Assembly: GCA_041690355.1 (NCBI GenBank)
Contig: JAWLHK010000018.1
Span: 70,730-84,332, forward strand
DNA: 13,603 nucleotides
Source: JAWLHK01 sp041690355 [NCBI: bacterium]
GTDB taxonomy: Bacteria; J088; JAWLBW01
Reading direction: 5' to 3'
Shown: piece by piece, positions 6,822-13,388 of the stretch
Layout of the letters: each line of letters begins with the position of its first letter
How positions within the stretch are numbered: position 1 is the first letter of the stretch
The notes under the pieces: generated by a model
Told to the model about the DNA's origin: nothing
Seen by the model: the letters and a program-made list of their open reading frames with translations, nothing else
Databases searched by the model: none
Position numbers and translations under genes: made by a program

Positions 6822-7610
6822 GTGCGTGTCAATTACATGATCCTTCGCTTCTTTTTCGCCTTGCTGGTTACGGCGTCTGTGGGTTGCGGGACAACCTACG
6901 GGGTCTATCATCGCGTGGGGGCGGGCGAGACGCTCTATTCCATCGGGCGCTCCTACGACGTCAGCCCCGACGAGATTCGCCTCGTCAACGGCATGCGCGA
7001 CAACACGATTTTTGCAGGGCGCGAACTCTTCATCCCGGGCGCCTCGCAGCCGCGACCCGTGCGCCCCGGCACGCCCGCTGAGCAGGCCGCCGATCCGAGT
7101 CCGCCGGCGGTTCAGCCCCCGCCGGTAGTCTCCGACGCGAACCCTGCGCGTCCCCCGCGCAAGCAGGTCGAAGTCGCGCGGGTGCACCCCGAAGACCTCG
7201 ACAAGCGTTCGGTGCGCAACCAGCGGGCGGGCGAGGGGGCCTTTCTGTGGCCGGTCGACGGCGGCCAGGTCTACTCGCGCTACGGCAAGCGTGACGGTCT
7301 GCAGCACGACGGCATCGATATCTCGGCCCCCGAAGGGACGCCGGTCTTCGCCGCCGCCGACGGGCGGGTCATCTACAGCGGCGACGGCGTGTCGGGCTAC
7401 GGCAACCTGATCATCGTCAAGCACGAAGGGGTCTACGCGACCGTCTACGCGCACAACCGCGAGAACAAGGTTCAGAAGGGCGACTTCGTCTCGCGCGGCC
7501 AGATCATTGCCACCGTCGGACAGACGGGGCGCGCTTCGGGGCCCCATCTGCACTTCGAAGTGCGCAAGAACAGCAAGCCGATCGATCCCACGAATCTCGT
7601 TTCCCGCTGA
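6822..7610 (+). CDS. LysM and M23-peptidase lipoprotein (NlpD-like)
   Basis: 262 aa from GTG 6822, or 257 aa from ATG 6837; neither has a Shine-Dalgarno sequence. A lipoprotein signal peptide (FFFALLVTASVG) ends at a candidate lipidated Cys22 (GTG numbering). One LysM domain (about 29-72) binds peptidoglycan. A Pro-rich linker (about 75-115) leads to an M23/LytM domain (about 140-260). The M23 zinc and catalytic residues are all present: His162 and Asp166 (HxxxD), His211 (YAH), His242 and His244 (HLH). It may therefore be an active endopeptidase, unlike Escherichia coli NlpD and EnvC, whose LytM domains are degenerate and activate amidases. The position after surE-pcm matches nlpD. The role is probably cell-wall remodelling or division from the outer-membrane inner leaflet. 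Confidence 0.92.
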   Translation: MRVNYMILRFFFALLVTASVGCGTTYGVYHRVGAGETLYSIGRSYDVSPDEIRLVNGMRDNTIFAGRELFIPGASQPRPVRPGTPAEQAADPSPPAVQPPPVVSDANPARPPRKQVEVARVHPEDLDKRSVRNQRAGEGAFLWPVDGGQVYSRYGKRDGLQHDGIDISAPEGTPVFAAADGRVIYSGDGVSGYGNLIIVKHEGVYATVYAHNRENKVQKGDFVSRGQIIATVGQTGRASGPHLHFEVRKNSKPIDPTNLVSR

Positions 7611-7635
7611 ACTTCTTCATTGAACCCTGCACTCC

Positions 7636-7686
7636 CCGGTTCCTTGGCCGGGCCGAACGGGCGGCTCGCGGCCGCCCCGGAACCGG
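7636..7686 (+). other. Long GC-rich hairpin after the LysM-M23 gene
   Basis: An outer perfect 8-bp stem CCGGTTCC (7636-7643) / GGAACCGG (7679-7686) encloses an inner perfect 7-bp stem GGGCGGC (7659-7665) / GCCGCCC (7671-7677) with loop TCGCG. No T-tract follows. It lies 25 nt after the stop codon and could be a non-canonical terminator or a processing site. Confidence 0.5.
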
Positions 7687-7743
7687 CCTCGGCGCAGCCT
7701 GCAGAGCATGCCGCTGCGGGGCGGTCTGCAGCGCACCCCGCTA

Positions 7744-7772
7744 GTGACATTCCCCCGTACTCTGGCTACAAT
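7744..7772 (+). promoter_or_regulatory. Sigma70-type promoter for tRNA-Arg
   Basis: -35 GTGACA (7744-7749, 5 of 6), 17-bp spacer, -10 TACAAT (7767-7772, 5 of 6). The predicted start is near 7779, giving a leader of about 79 nt before the mature tRNA. Confidence 0.7.
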
Positions 7773-7820
7773 GGTCGTCTTTACGTGCTTCGGCCGGCGT
7801 CGGTTCTACACTCGGGCTCT

Positions 7821-7874
7821 GGCCCTCGCAGGTCAGTTGGCCCTCGCAGGTCAGTTGGCCCTCGTAGCTCAGTT
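7821..7874 (+). repeat. 18-bp tandem triplication of the tRNA-Arg 5' end
   Basis: Three 18-bp units: 7821-7838 and 7839-7856 are both GGCCCTCGCAGGTCAGTT, and 7857-7874 is GGCCCTCGTAGCTCAGTT. The third unit contains the real tRNA 5' acceptor strand and D-arm start. The two leader copies share two changes, which correspond to tRNA position 8 (T to C) and position 11 (C to G). Confidence 0.92.
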
Positions 7875-7934
7875 GGATAGAGCAGCCGCCTCCTAAGCGG
7901 CAGGTCGCACGTTCGATTCGTGTCGAGGGCACCA
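7858..7934 (+). tRNA. tRNA-Arg (anticodon CCT)
   Basis: A full cloverleaf is visible. The acceptor GCCCTCG (7858-7864) pairs with CGAGGGC (7924-7930). The D-stem is GCTC/GAGC. The anticodon stem GCCGC/GCGGC encloses loop CTCCTAA with anticodon CCT, reading AGG. The variable loop is AGGTC, and the T-arm GCACG/CGTGT has loop TTCGATT. Discriminator A and an encoded CCA (7932-7934) follow. It decodes a rare arginine codon in a GC-rich genome. aspS starts 81 nt downstream with no obvious promoter between. Confidence 0.96.
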
Positions 7935-7951
7935 TCTCCGGTTGATTGCGC

Positions 7952-7969
7952 GCCGGCTTCTACGCCGGC
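7952..7969 (+). other. Hairpin between tRNA-Arg and aspS
   Basis: GCCGGC (7952-7957), loop TTCTAC, GCCGGC (7964-7969). There is no T-run after it. If the tRNA and aspS are co-transcribed it could mark a cleavage or pausing site. Confidence 0.4.
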
Positions 7970-8015
7970 CATGTCGTGTCCGACGCACCCTTTGGTTTCT
8001 CGAGGAATGCATCCT

Positions 8016-9791
8016 ATGTTCCGCAGCAGCTACTGTGTCGATATCGCAGGCGAGCCCATTGGCGCCCGCGTCACCCTGGCCGGTTGGGTTCATCGCCGCC
8101 GCGACCACGGCGGTCTCGTGTTCATCGATCTGCGCGACCGCACGGGTATTGCCCAGGTCGTGTTTTCGCCCGACGTGCAGAAAGCGGTGCACGAAAAGGC
8201 GCATGAGCTTCGCTCTGAGTTCGTCGTCAGCATTACCGGCGTGCTGCGCGCCCGACCGGCAGGCACCGAGAACCCGAACATGCCGACCGGCAAGGTCGAA
8301 GTCTATGCCGATGAGCTGCGCGTGCTCAATGCCGCGAAGACCCCGCCATTTCTCATCGAAGACGACGAGAACGTCAACGAGATGCAGCGGCTGCGGTACC
8401 GCTACCTCGATCTGCGGCGTCCGTTCATGCAGCGCAACCTCATCACCCGGCACCGCGTTTCGTCGCTGGCCCGGCGGTTTCTCGATGACAACGGCTTTCT
8501 GGAGATCGAAACGCCCATGCTCACGAAGAGCACGCCCGAGGGGGCACGCGATTACCTCGTGCCGAGCCGCGTGAACCCCGGAGAGTTCTTCGCACTGCCG
8601 CAGAGCCCGCAGCTGTTCAAGCAGATTCTCATGGTCTCGGGATATGACCGGTACTATCAGATCACGCGCTGCTTCCGCGATGAGGATCTGCGCGCCGACC
8701 GCCAGCCCGAATTCACCCAGATCGATATCGAGACGTCCTTTCTCGACCGCGACGAGTTTCTGCCGCTCATGGAGAGCCTCGTGGGCGGAATCTTCAAAGA
8801 CATCCTCGACGTCGAAATTCCCCTCCCACTCCCGCGCCTGACCTACGCCGAAGCGATGCGCCGCTTCGGGGTCGACAAGCCCGACATGCGCTTCGGCATG
8901 GAACTGCACGAATTGTCGGATCTCTGTGCGAACGTCGACTTCAAGGTTTTTCGCGAAGCAGTCGAGAAGAAGGGAATCGTCAACGTGCTCACCGTAAAGG
9001 GGGGCGCCGAGATGAGCCGCGGCGATCTGGATGCCCTCACCGAGTTTGCCAAAGTTTACGGCGCCAAGGGGCTTGCATGGGTGAAGCTGCAGCCCGACGG
9101 CTGGCAGAGCCCGATCGCGAAGTTCTTCAAAGAAGAAGAGAAGAAAGAGATCGAGCGCCGGGCCGAGGCCGAAACGGGCGATCTGCTGCTTTTCGGTGCC
9201 GACAGTGCCCGGGTCGTACACGCGACCCTGGGTAATCTGCGTGTGCACCTGGCCGAGAAGCGCAACCTGATTCCCGAAGGGGAATACCGGCTGATCTGGG
9301 TCACGGATTTTCCGCTCGTGGAATTTGACGAGGAGGCCAATCGCTACGTGGCCATGCACCATCCGTTCACGGCGCCGATGGACGAGGATCTCGAGAAGCT
9401 GGCCACCGCCCCCGAGCAGGTGCGCGCGAAGGCATACGACATCGTGCTCAACGGCGTTGAACTCGGCGGCGGCAGCATCCGTATCCACCGCCAGGACGTG
9501 CAGCAGCGCATGTTTGAACTGCTCGGTATCGGCGCCGAAGAATCCCAGAAGAAATTCGGCTTTCTGCTCGACGCCCTGCAGTACGGCGCGCCCCCGCACG
9601 GCGGCATCGCCTTCGGCCTCGATCGGCTCATCATGCTGTTGACAGGCTCCAGCTCCATCCGCGACGTCATTGCGTTTCCGAAGACCCAGAAGGCACAGTG
9701 CCTCATGACCGAGGCGCCGAGCGAAGTCGCCGAAACGCAGCTGCGCGAGCTGCACATCAAGACGGTGGGCGTCAAGAAGGAACCGGCCTGA
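8016..9791 (+). CDS. aspS: Aspartate--tRNA ligase (AspRS)
   Basis: 591 aa from the ATG at 8016, with GAGGA (8002-8006) at 9-nt spacing. An in-frame ATG at 8007 lies too close to that site, and the longer frame back to 7920 overlaps the tRNA. Domain order is that of bacterial AspRS: an N-terminal OB-fold anticodon-binding domain (about 1-105), then class II catalytic motifs. Motif 2 is [20 protein letters not shown] and motif 3 is [13 protein letters not shown]. The bacterial GAD insertion lies between them. His31 (RRRDHGG) and Gly83 (RPAGTEN) match residues associated with non-discriminating AspRS, suggesting it may also charge tRNA-Asn. An intrinsic terminator lies at 9875-9920. Confidence 0.97.
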
Positions 9792-9792
9792 A

Positions 9793-9830
9793 CGAATTTA
9801 CGATTGACGAGTGACAATTTACAATTGACC
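9793..9830 (-). repeat. CGTMAAT-type heptamer array (inverted), after aspS
   Basis: Five 7-bp units in reverse orientation, written on the plus strand as ATTTACG, ATTGACG, AGTGACA, ATTTACA and ATTGACC. The array begins within a few nt of the aspS TGA. It is more degenerate than the forward arrays at 6745-6772 and 9963-9990, and lacks their hairpin. Confidence 0.7.
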
Positions 9831-9874
9831 GTTCGAATGGACTGACTTGCGCCCGTTCGAGTTTTCTCTTCAGC

Positions 9875-9920
9875 AACGCCTCTCTCCCACATGTGGAGAG
9901 GGGCGTTTCTGTTTGGTTTT
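9875..9920 (+). terminator. Rho-independent terminator of aspS
   Basis: A 13-bp stem (left arm 9875-9887 AACGCCTCTCTCC, right arm 9895-9907 GGAGAGGGGCGTT, one G-T pair) encloses a 7-nt loop CACATGT. It is followed by the T-rich TCTGTTTGGTTTT. It separates aspS from the pil regulatory region. Confidence 0.85.
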
Positions 9921-9944
9921 CACGGCATTGGGAGATGGGCTGGA

Positions 9945-10021
9945 GCCTTGCCGTCTGAAATTCGTCAATCGTAAATCGTCAATCGTAAATGGAGTGATGC
10001 GCTTCGCTTTCCCGTCCACTC
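9945..10021 (+). repeat. Dispersed intergenic repeat, copy B (CGTMAAT array plus hairpin)
   Basis: The CTTGCC..TGAAATT prefix is followed by units CGTCAAT, CGTAAAT, CGTCAAT and CGTAAAT (9963-9990). A hairpin pair GGAGTG (9991-9996) / CACTCC (10017-10022) follows, with GCGCTT..CTTTC..GTCCACTC in common with copy A at 6730-6802. Where copy A has TTGACT, copy B has TTCGCT. Confidence 0.75.
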
Positions 10022-10195
10022 CGTATCTGGTGCCCGCACTCGAAAGACGATAGAATCTCGACGCGGTCGCAGGCCCGGCAACCGCGGTTCGCGCCGCGGG
10101 AAACCCGCCGGCCCGCTTCGGGAGCGGTTGTTCAAGGTGTCGGCAGCTGAAAAACTACAAAATGCTACAGGAATCTAGTCTAAATAGCCGTAATC

Positions 10196-10211
10196 ACACA
10201 AGATATTGTGT
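10196..10211 (+). promoter_or_regulatory. Perfect inverted repeat, candidate operator 1
   Basis: ACACAA-GATA-TTGTGT: 6-bp perfect arms with a 4-bp spacer, about 80 bp upstream of the -35 box at 10292. This size is typical of dimeric helix-turn-helix binding sites. Its function is inferred. Confidence 0.45.
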
Positions 10212-10243
10212 ACCTTCGCCCTTTGCCCCACAATCTGTAGGTA

Positions 10244-10257
10244 AATTAAGCTTAATT
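10244..10257 (+). promoter_or_regulatory. 14-bp perfect palindrome, candidate operator 2
   Basis: AATTAAGCTTAATT lies 35 bp upstream of the -35 box, in the AT-rich block. It is a good candidate for an operator or an UP-like element; the binding protein is unknown, and the adjacent XRE protein is one candidate. Confidence 0.45.
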
Positions 10258-10291
10258 AAGTGGAACTGTAAGGTAGTTTTGGGTCAAACGC

Positions 10292-10320
10292 TTGACACTT
10301 TGCCTGAAAAGTGGATTAAT
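10292..10320 (+). promoter_or_regulatory. Sigma70-type promoter for XRE-pilMNOP
   Basis: Consensus -35 TTGACA (10292-10297), 17-bp spacer, -10 ATTAAT (10315-10320, 4 of 6). The predicted start is near 10327, about 51 nt before the XRE ATG. Confidence 0.65.
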
Positions 10321-10377
10321 GAGCCTACGCTGAGTAACACGGGTCCGGTTGCATGCGAAGGAAGGGTCCGGGGAGCA

Positions 10378-10587
10378 ATGGCCTTGGCAAAGAATTTTGT
10401 AAAACGGCTGCGGGAAGACCGCCTGATGAGTAAGGCAGAGCTTGCCCGCAAGGCTGGCGTCAGCACGCTGACCATCGATCGCATCGAACGCGGCGAGAAC
10501 TGCCGCATGGATACGAAGCGAAAAATCATCCTTGCGCTTGGATTCAAGCTGTCTGAGCGGAACAATGTTTTTGCGGAAGAAGACTGA
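10378..10587 (+). CDS. Small XRE-family helix-turn-helix regulator
   Basis: 69 aa from the ATG at 10378. GGGGAG lies close before it and AAGGAAGG further up. Almost the whole protein is one HTH_3/XRE domain. FVKRLREDRLMSKAELARKA is followed by the recognition-helix region GVSTLTIDRIERGENCRM (about 27-44) and a closing helix KRKIILALGF. There is no ligand or dimerisation domain beyond this, so it probably binds DNA as a small dimer. It ends 8 nt before pilM and shares its promoter, so it is likely an autoregulator and/or regulator of the pilus operon. That role is inferred from position only. The longer in-frame opening to 10162 is rejected because it would run through the promoter. Confidence 0.85.
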   Translation: MALAKNFVKRLREDRLMSKAELARKAGVSTLTIDRIERGENCRMDTKRKIILALGFKLSERNNVFAEED

Positions 10588-10595
10588 GAGGCGCC

Positions 10596-11654
10596 ATGCT
10601 TGGAAAGCGTAAAGATCTGCTTGGCCTCGATATCGGCTCCAGCTCGATCAAGATGGTCGAACTGAAGAAGAGAAAGAACGCCTACGAATTGGTGAACTGG
10701 GGCGTGGCCCCACTGTCGCCCGACGTCATCGTCGACGGCGCGCTCATGAATTCGAGCGCCATCGTCGACGCGATTCAGGAACTGGTCCTCCAGACCAAGA
10801 CCAAGAACAAGAACGTCGCCAGCAGCGTTTCGGGAACGAGCGTCATCATTAAAAAAATCGCCCTGCCGGTCATGACCCGCCAGGAGCTCCAGGAAAACAT
10901 CAAATGGGAGGCCGAACAGCACATCCCGTTTGATATCAACGACGTGAACGTCGACTTTCACATCCTCGGCGAAGATGGCGAAGAAGCCGGCAAGATGGGT
11001 GTCATCCTGGTCGCTTCGAAGAAAGACCTGGTAAACGACTACACCGGGGTCATCGCCGAGGCCGGTCTGACCCCCCTCTGCGTCGACATCGACGCCTTCG
11101 CTGTCGGCAATGCCTTCGAACTGAATTATCCCGACCGGCTGGCTGAGGTCGTTGCCGTCGTGAATATCGGCGCCGGGGTTTCGAACATCAACGTCATCAA
11201 GAACGGCGTCTCGTCGTTCGTGCGCGACATCAACACCGGCGGCAACGCGGTTACGGAGATGATCCAGAAGAATCTGGGCATCCAGTACGAAGAGGCCGAG
11301 CGCATGAAGCGTGGCGGCGACGAGGGCAGCGACGAAATCATCCCGCAGGAAGTCAACGACATCGTGCGCCAGATCAGCCAGAACCTCGCCGGCGAAATCG
11401 CACGCTCGCTCGACTTCTACTCTGCAACGAACCCGGACGATCGCATCACGAAGCTCTATCTCGCCGGGGGCATGGCCCTCACCGCGGGGCTGGATACGAT
11501 CATCGAACGGACGGTCGGCTATCCCGTTGAATTGATGAATCCTTTCAATAACATTGCCCTTGGCAAGAACGTCGATCCCGCCGCGCTCGCCAAGGTGGCT
11601 CCGGCCCTGGCGGTTGCCGTCGGCCTGGCCATGAGGAGGCTGGACGAAGAATGA
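10596..11654 (+). CDS. pilM: Type IV pilus assembly protein PilM
   Basis: 352 aa, the usual length. This is a cytoplasmic actin/FtsA-like ATPase of the pilus alignment complex. The N-terminal phosphate-1 loop LLGLDIGSSSIKMVEL (8-23) is intact. LPVMTRQELQENIKWEAEQH is a PilM signature. VVNIGAGVSNINVIKNG is the second nucleotide-binding strand pair and LAGGMALTAGLD the adenosine motif near 290. PilM binds the cytoplasmic tail of PilN. The ATG follows GAGAGG, and the stop overlaps pilN as ATGA. Confidence 0.97.
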   Translation: MLGKRKDLLGLDIGSSSIKMVELKKRKNAYELVNWGVAPLSPDVIVDGALMNSSAIVDAIQELVLQTKTKNKNVASSVSGTSVIIKKIALPVMTRQELQENIKWEAEQHIPFDINDVNVDFHILGEDGEEAGKMGVILVASKKDLVNDYTGVIAEAGLTPLCVDIDAFAVGNAFELNYPDRLAEVVAVVNIGAGVSNINVIKNGVSSFVRDINTGGNAVTEMIQKNLGIQYEEAERMKRGGDEGSDEIIPQEVNDIVRQISQNLAGEIARSLDFYSATNPDDRITKLYLAGGMALTAGLDTIIERTVGYPVELMNPFNNIALGKNVDPAALAKVAPALAVAVGLAMRRLDEE

Positions 11655-12223
11655 TCAAGATCAACTTACTTCCGGTCCAGAAGACTTCGCGCAACGACGC
11701 CCTGAAGATTCAGGGTGCCGTCGGGGCCCTGGCCTTGATCGTGACGCTCGGCATCTGCTGGTTCTTCCTTTCCGAGATCAACGGGGAGGTCGAAGCGGCT
11801 CAGCAGCAGATTACCGACACGCGTAACGCCATCAACGATCTGAAGAAGATCGTGGGCGAAATCGAAGACATCAAGAAGCGTAAGGCCGACCTCGAGAAGA
11901 AACTCGAAGTCATCCACGAACTCGAAGCCGGACGCCTCGATACGGTCCGGGCCATGGACGGCATCGCCCGCGCCGTGCCCGAGCAGCTCTGGCTCGACAA
12001 CTACGAGCTCGCCGGCCGCGGAATCAAGCTTTCGGGCCTGGCGACCGACAATCAGGTTATCGCTGAATTCATGCAGAACCTGAGCAGCAATCCTCAAGTC
12101 GCCGGCGTACTTCTGTCAGAAACCGTGCGTCAGACCAAAGAAGGATATGACATCGTGCGCTTCTCAATCTCGCTCAAGTTTGAGCCGAAAGTGCCCGCCA
12201 CGCCCAAGGACAAGCAGGGGTAA
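11651..12223 (+). CDS. pilN: Type IV pilus assembly protein PilN
   Basis: 190 aa. The cytoplasmic N-terminus MIKINLLPVQ carries the INLLP motif that docks into PilM. A single membrane helix (about 20-41) follows. A charged coiled-coil (about 45-90, with KKIVGEIEDIKKRKADLEKK) leads to a periplasmic ferredoxin-like domain containing LDNYELAGRGIKLSGLATDN. It pairs with PilO in the inner membrane. The start overlaps the pilM stop by 4 nt, with AGGAGG about 12 nt upstream inside pilM. Confidence 0.96.
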   Translation: MIKINLLPVQKTSRNDALKIQGAVGALALIVTLGICWFFLSEINGEVEAAQQQITDTRNAINDLKKIVGEIEDIKKRKADLEKKLEVIHELEAGRLDTVRAMDGIARAVPEQLWLDNYELAGRGIKLSGLATDNQVIAEFMQNLSSNPQVAGVLLSETVRQTKEGYDIVRFSISLKFEPKVPATPKDKQG

Positions 12224-12225
12224 CC

Positions 12226-12855
12226 ATGGCGCTTCAGGTCAATATCAACTGGCAGCAGCTCGAGAAGGTTCCGGTCAAGACCAAGGCGGCCGTGCTCGTC
12301 GCCGTTCTTGCACTCATCGGCGGCCTTTTCTACTACTTCCTTTATCTGCCCAAATCGCAGGAGCTCGATCAGCTGAACCAGCAGCTTGCTGAATTGCAGC
12401 GCGAGTACAATGCGACCAAGGCCATCGCCGACAACCTGCCGACCTTCGAAGAAGAGGTTCGCCGCTTGAACGAACGGTTCGCGGTGGCCCTGACGAAGCT
12501 GCCGAACTCGGCCGAGATCGACAAGATTCTCATCGATCTGCCGAACCTGGCCAAGGAAGAGGAGCTGGGCGTCAAATCGTTCAAGCCGGCTCCCAATCGC
12601 GGTAAGGGCTTCTATGCCGTCGTGCCGCTGAACCTCAAGATGACGGGTCCGTACAACCGGTTGGCGAAGTTCTTCGAAAAGATCGGACGGCTCAACCGCA
12701 TCATTGCCGTGCGCGACGTCAAGTTTCGGGTTCTCAGCGGTAAGGGGGTTCGCGAAGGCGAGGTTACCCTCGACGCAGACGTTCAGGCAGAAACGTACAC
12801 GTTCGTCGAGAACCCGGGCGCCGATCCCAAGAACAAGAAGAAGGGCGGGAGGTAA
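12226..12855 (+). CDS. pilO: Type IV pilus assembly protein PilO
   Basis: 209 aa. A short cytoplasmic N-terminus, one membrane helix (about 20-41, VLVAVLALIGGLFYYFLYLP), and a coiled-coil (about 45-85, LDQLNQQLAELQREYNATK) lead to a periplasmic domain. That domain contains LPNSAEIDKILIDLPNLAKE and FYAVVPLNLKMTGPYNRLAKFFEKIGRLNRI, a strongly typical PilO block. It heterodimerises with PilN and binds PilP. It begins 2 nt after the pilN TAA, with CAGGGG upstream. Confidence 0.96.
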   Translation: MALQVNINWQQLEKVPVKTKAAVLVAVLALIGGLFYYFLYLPKSQELDQLNQQLAELQREYNATKAIADNLPTFEEEVRRLNERFAVALTKLPNSAEIDKILIDLPNLAKEEELGVKSFKPAPNRGKGFYAVVPLNLKMTGPYNRLAKFFEKIGRLNRIIAVRDVKFRVLSGKGVREGEVTLDADVQAETYTFVENPGADPKNKKKGGR

Positions 12856-12857
12856 TC

Positions 12858-13388
12858 ATGACGCGCTTCACAGTATTGTCTGTGCTTCTCATTCTTGTCT
12901 TCGTTTCGGGGTGTGGCGAAGAAGACGTCGCCCCGCCGCCGCCGCCCGCAGCTCCGGCCCCGAAGCCGAAGCCCGCTGCGCCGAAGCCGGCGGCGGCTGC
13001 ACAGATCCCTGCTGCGGCCACGGAAACGACTGTCGTTGAGTACACCTACGATGTTTCGATTCGCGACCCCTTTCAGCCGGCCGTCGGCCTGGCCAAGGAT
13101 CGCATCGTGAATCCGACGTGCGGGCCGCTCTGTGAGTACGACCTCTCCCAGTTCCGCATCCGCGGCATCATCTGGGGCATCGCCGAACCGGTCGCCACCA
13201 TGCAGGCCCCCAACGGCAAGGCTTATATCGCCAAGGTCGGTGTGCCCATCGGCAAGAACAACGGCAAGATCGTGAGCATTACGGCAGATGGTCTCGTGGT
13301 GCTCGAAAAGTATGTGAATTACAAGGGTGAAGTCGTGACGAATCGCGTCGATGTCCGGCTTCCCGTCGTGCAGAGCGGTCGTCGGTAA
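12858..13388 (+). CDS. pilP: Type IV pilus lipoprotein PilP
   Basis: 176 aa. A lipoprotein signal peptide ends in VSGC (Cys19). A Pro/Ala/Lys-rich linker (about 26-54) is followed by the PilP beta domain: VSIRDPFQPAVG (about 66-77), then YDLSQFRIRGIIWG and AKVGVPIGKNNGKIVSITADGLVVLE. PilP links the PilN-PilO dimer to the PilQ secretin. Cys88 and Cys92 (CGPLC) are extra cysteines in the domain and could form a periplasmic disulfide. The start lies 2 nt after pilO, with a strong GGGAGGT. Confidence 0.96.
   Translation: MTRFTVLSVLLILVFVSGCGEEDVAPPPPPAAPAPKPKPAAPKPAAAAQIPAAATETTVVEYTYDVSIRDPFQPAVGLAKDRIVNPTCGPLCEYDLSQFRIRGIIWGIAEPVATMQAPNGKAYIAKVGVPIGKNNGKIVSITADGLVVLEKYVNYKGEVVTNRVDVRLPVVQSGRR

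Follow-up and report, generated by a model that had tools for sequence, protein, structure and literature searches.

Two tandem copies of a tRNA-Arg(CCU) 5' end in the gene's own leader, most likely a relic of short tandem duplication

The window analysed here, the whole 13,603-nucleotide stretch of DNA, contains a single tRNA gene called by ARAGORN, a tRNA-Arg(CCU) with an encoded CCA end (Table 1), which is placed between an NlpD-like gene and aspS; over positions 6822-13388 the order is the NlpD-like gene, tRNA-Arg(CCU), aspS and then pilM to pilP. Ten proteins of the window were assigned by Pfam to SurE, PCMT, LysM/M23 (the NlpD-like protein), a class II synthetase with a GAD domain (AspRS), PilM, PilP, two ABC transporter parts, a cupin and a GNAT protein. 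AGG, which this tRNA decodes, accounts for 5 of the 155 Arg codons in eight window genes (2.2 per 1000 codons), and the remark in the original prediction that the tRNA serves a rare codon therefore holds within the window.

Table 1. Features of the tRNA-Arg(CCU) locus, in window coordinates
Feature	Position	Strand	Evidence
Promoter-like site GTGACA-17 nt-TACAAT	7744..7772	+	Consensus scan, 10/12; 0.1 expected in shuffles
Entire period-18 array, TGG at each unit's edges	7820..7876	+	Repeat search
Leader copy 1 of tRNA positions 1-18 (T8C, C11G)	7822..7839	+	Repeat and pattern search
Leader copy 2, identical to copy 1	7840..7857	+	Repeat and pattern search
tRNA-Arg(CCU), CCA encoded	7858..7934	+	ARAGORN; Rfam RF00005, 67.3 bits over 7858-7931

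The repeat search identified three copies of a 21-nt sequence (7820-7840, 7838-7858 and 7856-7876) spaced 18 and 18 nt apart, the first two being identical and the third 90% identical, with two differing positions. Identity at a period of 18 begins at 7820, and adjacent units of the array overlap by the three nucleotides TGG. When the 18-mer was searched with N at positions 8 and 11 and up to 3 mismatches allowed, the window gave these three matches and no more, whereas its shuffles gave 0.20 on average and three matches were reached in 0 of 200. The leader copies lie head-to-tail at constant spacing directly 5' of the tRNA gene, and both depart from it by a T-to-C change at tRNA position 8 and a C-to-G change at position 11, two sites that are constrained in a real tRNA. 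Two perfect 18-bp copies of the tRNA 5' end with both changes in common had been predicted from the sequence, and this anatomy was confirmed; the predicted start of 7821 lies one base 5' of the first 18-mer. The 7-nt strand GCCCUCG occurs three times 5' of the 3' strand CGAGGGC.

The promoter-like site fits a transcription start near 7779, from which both copies would fall in the leader of the precursor; on this consensus match the leader would be approximately 79 nt long. An Rfam search of positions 7600-8100 (E up to 1) matched the tRNA itself and, below the gathering score, the strand opposite to it; the leader matched no other family.

Relatives of the window were sought through its proteins. 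The NlpD search of genome contigs identified no relative of the window, and the AspRS search of genome contigs gave a top identity of 62% among the best 80 of 103 loci. AspRS was also compared in 198 genomes of one phylum, 80 genomes of another (78 of which matched) and 63 genomes of the best class, with an identity of at most 63% among the near-full-length matches listed; the class of genome G311 is represented by one genome, with an AspRS identity of 62%. None of the other window proteins searched was found beside AspRS in 96 loci (E up to 1e-8, with an HTH open reading frame excluded). No close relative carrying the locus was thus found among the genomes searched, and since their nearest AspRS is only about 61-63% identical, the source lineage seems to be poorly sampled. 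Viral contigs yielded neither AspRS nor a doubled 18-bp unit, and a period-18 pattern allowing 1 mismatch gave 6 matches in 297 genomes, none of them with a tRNA called by ARAGORN.

The same arrangement was surveyed at other tRNA genes using a pattern of TCAGNNG shortly upstream of a tRNA carrying AGCTCAG, GG and GTTCGA, with periods of approximately 16-22, in 987 genomes of three phyla (395, 295 and 297). A total of 86 matches was obtained (36, 25 and 25 per phylum), all of which were examined for copies of the first 18 bases of the tRNA. From the 381 eligible tRNA sites counted in 39 genomes, a rough chance expectation of 26 was estimated for the first set, in which 36 were observed, so that the matches are roughly at the chance level for a short extra motif. 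A tRNA was called in the loci of 85 of the 86 matches, the exception being L204. True tandem copies were present in two of the 86, namely at a tRNA-Asn(GUU) gene (locus L131; 18/18 bases, period 18) and at a tRNA-Arg(UCU) gene (locus L138; 16/18 bases, period 20), and all other tRNAs in the survey loci gave 12/18 or less; one of these copy comparisons covered 96 tRNAs, reduced to 83 after removal of repeats and of those with less than 40 nt upstream. Among the tRNAs and periods visible to the pattern, such copies thus occurred in 2 of the 987 genomes.

The three cases were compared at their departures and junctions. Departures from the tRNA fall at positions 8 and 11 for the window copies and at positions 7 and 9 for L138, and L131 has none; such variation of the departure sites between cases is expected if there is no common constraint. 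No microhomology was found at the junctions of L131 and L138, and the window alone has TGG, which indicates that slippage at TGG is not general. A common D-loop breakpoint in the three cases was considered and set aside, as the pattern itself favours units of approximately 18-22 nt starting near base 1. Separately, in the L131 leader a second tRNA-Asn-like stretch is broken up by two small palindromes, TCCCGACATGGTCGGGA and TCCCGATTGCATCGGGA, which gives the impression of hairpin elements inserted into a tRNA copy; by eye, the stretch's own leader resembles that of the intact tRNA-Asn in L172. Among viral contigs a single one matched the generic pattern; this stretch (L161:10811-10892) consists of simply repeated TAGCTCAGGC and GGCTCAGGC-like units, which imitate the D-arm motif of a tRNA, and ARAGORN called no tRNA in it.

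Both analogues were examined in genus-mates. The tRNA-Asn copy was absent from 14 of 14 other loci (15 fetched, from a genus of 17 genomes), and the tRNA-Arg(UCU) copy was likewise absent from 14 of 14 (15 fetched, with 39 genomes of the genus drawn). For tRNA-Asn, the leader of the sister locus L163 is as in L162 and, one base aside, aligns as an empty site, while in L164 and L169 a similar leader is recognisable by eye and lacks the copy. By eye, neither the remaining tRNA-Asn leaders nor any of the 14 tRNA-Arg(UCU) leaders could be aligned with the copy-bearing one, so that absence of the copy from these apparently unrelated leaders denotes non-conservation only. The tRNA-Asn copy is accordingly best read as a recent insertion; the tRNA-Arg(UCU) copy is likely to be one. 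The array in the window is one duplication round beyond these analogues.

A role for the copies was weighed in models of precursor folding, in which the acceptor stem alone was used because ViennaRNA gave no cloverleaf for the bare tRNA. In one such role the copies act as competing decoys, their GCCCUCG pairing with CGAGGGC to give misfolds or alternative RNase P sites that would throttle a rare-codon tRNA, a reading to which the threefold 7-nt strand ahead of the 3' strand and the rarity of AGG in the window genes lend some colour. However, in the equilibrium fold the copies paired with the 3' acceptor strand at 0.0001 and 0.0005 in the observed version, at no more than 0.0074 when unmutated and at no more than 0.016 across all four versions, and G11 of the copies is unable to form the D-stem pair with G24. 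The mean pairing of the true acceptor stem was 0.975 with the observed copies, and no fold competing with the tRNA was found in this equilibrium model; the degree of structure in the 162-nt precursor is unremarkable (z -1.09, with 23 of 200 shuffles as good). Decoy action is therefore considered very unlikely. A different role is conceivable in which leader hairpins of 6-9 bp, formed by the mutated copies, hide the acceptor-like strand and slow RNase P or insulate the folding of the tRNA, the two changes having been selected to render the copies harmless or useful. The minimum free energy structure of the precursor does contain a 9-bp hairpin abutting base 1 of the tRNA, and each copy has its own 6-bp hairpin, stemming from C11G, at -7.8 and -5.7 kcal/mol compared with -0.7 kcal/mol for the matching tRNA segment. 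Mean pairing of the true stem was 0.947 with unmutated copies and 0.970 with T8C alone, dropped to 0.138 with C11G alone and was restored to the observed value by T8C, which is the one folding result that leans toward the original prediction. With both copies deleted the model gave 0.35, but a single copy already gave 0.975, and the value ranged from 0.64 to 0.998 across 11 assumed transcription starts, so that differences of such size are little to be trusted. Also against hairpin selection, the leader is of ordinary stability (matched by 54 of 500 shuffles) and the copy in L131 is unchanged throughout. When all 1,377 double changes of the unit were ranked, the observed pair came 175th by ensemble energy, 135th by stability of the leader, 109th by two-unit stability, 387th by pairing of the true stem and 757th by low pairing of the copies. 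Selection of T8C and C11G against misfolding was rejected as a candidate on the same ranking, the pair being unexceptional among the 1,377 although C11G by itself does harm in the model. The leader hairpins may affect tRNA-Arg(CCU), but the hairpin reading as a whole appears unlikely. Slightly less likely again is the broader proposal that bacteria recurrently gain new leader structure through partial copies of tRNA 5' ends, in which here the hairpins would come from C11G, T8C would spare the true stem, and the leader would insulate folding or delay RNase P processing of a rare-codon tRNA.

It was also considered whether the copies are the scar left by, or the target of, a mobile element integrating at tRNA-Arg(CCU). 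Genes for tRNA-Arg(CCU) are integration targets in other bacteria, and a Klebsiella phage record was found in which an integrase adjoins a tRNA-Arg. No tandem copy was seen in that record, however, no plasmid or phage record covered 80% of the leader-tRNA query, and none of the ten window proteins searched is an integrase, all belonging to transport, housekeeping or pilus families. Integrating elements moreover usually rebuild the 3' end of the tRNA, whereas the copies here are of the 5' end. Of all the readings considered, this one is given the least weight.

Short tandem duplication in two steps, with drift between them, very probably accounts for the leader copies, and it is favoured because the unit runs from base 1, the copies are identical, the changes fall at sites constrained in the tRNA and analogues exist. 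In the order of events that we infer, 18 bp reaching from the tRNA 5' end to the D-loop would have been duplicated head-to-tail, possibly through replication slippage between TGG at -2 to +1 and the D-loop TGG at 17-19, a route that is plausible for the window and not for the analogues. The upstream copy, without tRNA constraint, would then have drifted at positions 8 and 11. In the third and last event the drifted copy would itself have been duplicated, as the identity of the leader copies to each other (18/18) indicates. Because the unit begins no later than base 1, a complete tRNA is kept in the downstream copy and the event would be tolerated; RNase P would remove the copies, if transcribed, along with the leader, and the duplication was probably near-neutral for tRNA-Arg(CCU). 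Weighing against a relic, the identical changes in both copies could reflect a common constraint, and the hairpins of the copies are more stable than the matching tRNA segment, with C11G alone spoiling the true stem and both changes together not doing so. The original prediction had pointed to alternative folds or competing RNase P sites and had offered either a slippage relic or a leader tuning maturation of the tRNA. The relic is strengthened by the head-to-tail order, the identity of the copies and the absence of the analogous copies from the genus-mate loci fetched, and the decoy folds were not borne out when the precursor was folded.

Since the same anatomy occurs at two other tRNA genes, the copies alone are not to be read as regulation. 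The survey suggests that partial copies of tRNA 5' ends appear occasionally and are tolerated. Such arrangements are rare, though other tRNA genes have them, and the one here most resembles a harmless scar of DNA copying, not a regulatory device. The locus thereby offers a calibration, in that a striking tRNA-leader repeat is best explained by ordinary tandem duplication that spares the tRNA.

Among known systems, pairing of a leader with the 3' RCCA is described as extending the acceptor stem and inhibiting RNase P (PMC9433436). The present case is alike in that a leader beside the cleavage site can affect recognition of the precursor, and differs in that the last leader bases, GUUG, do not pair in register with ACCA. 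None of the titles and abstract openings listed by full-text literature searching reported a leader holding partial copies of the tRNA 5' end, which is weak evidence as few subscription journals are covered. The tandem repeats beside the tyrT gene of Escherichia coli also carry a repeated piece of the tRNA; those repeats are long, lie downstream and contain the 3' end, whereas the unit here is of 18 bp, lies upstream and contains the 5' end. Short tandem duplications produced by slippage or template switching are alike in their head-to-tail order, small unit and identical recent copies, and the copies of the analogues are likewise absent from the genus-mate loci fetched; the arrangement differs from them in that the unit is the 5' end of a tRNA gene, in that the copies sit in the leader of a structural RNA and in that two of the three cases (L131 and L138) are without microhomology.
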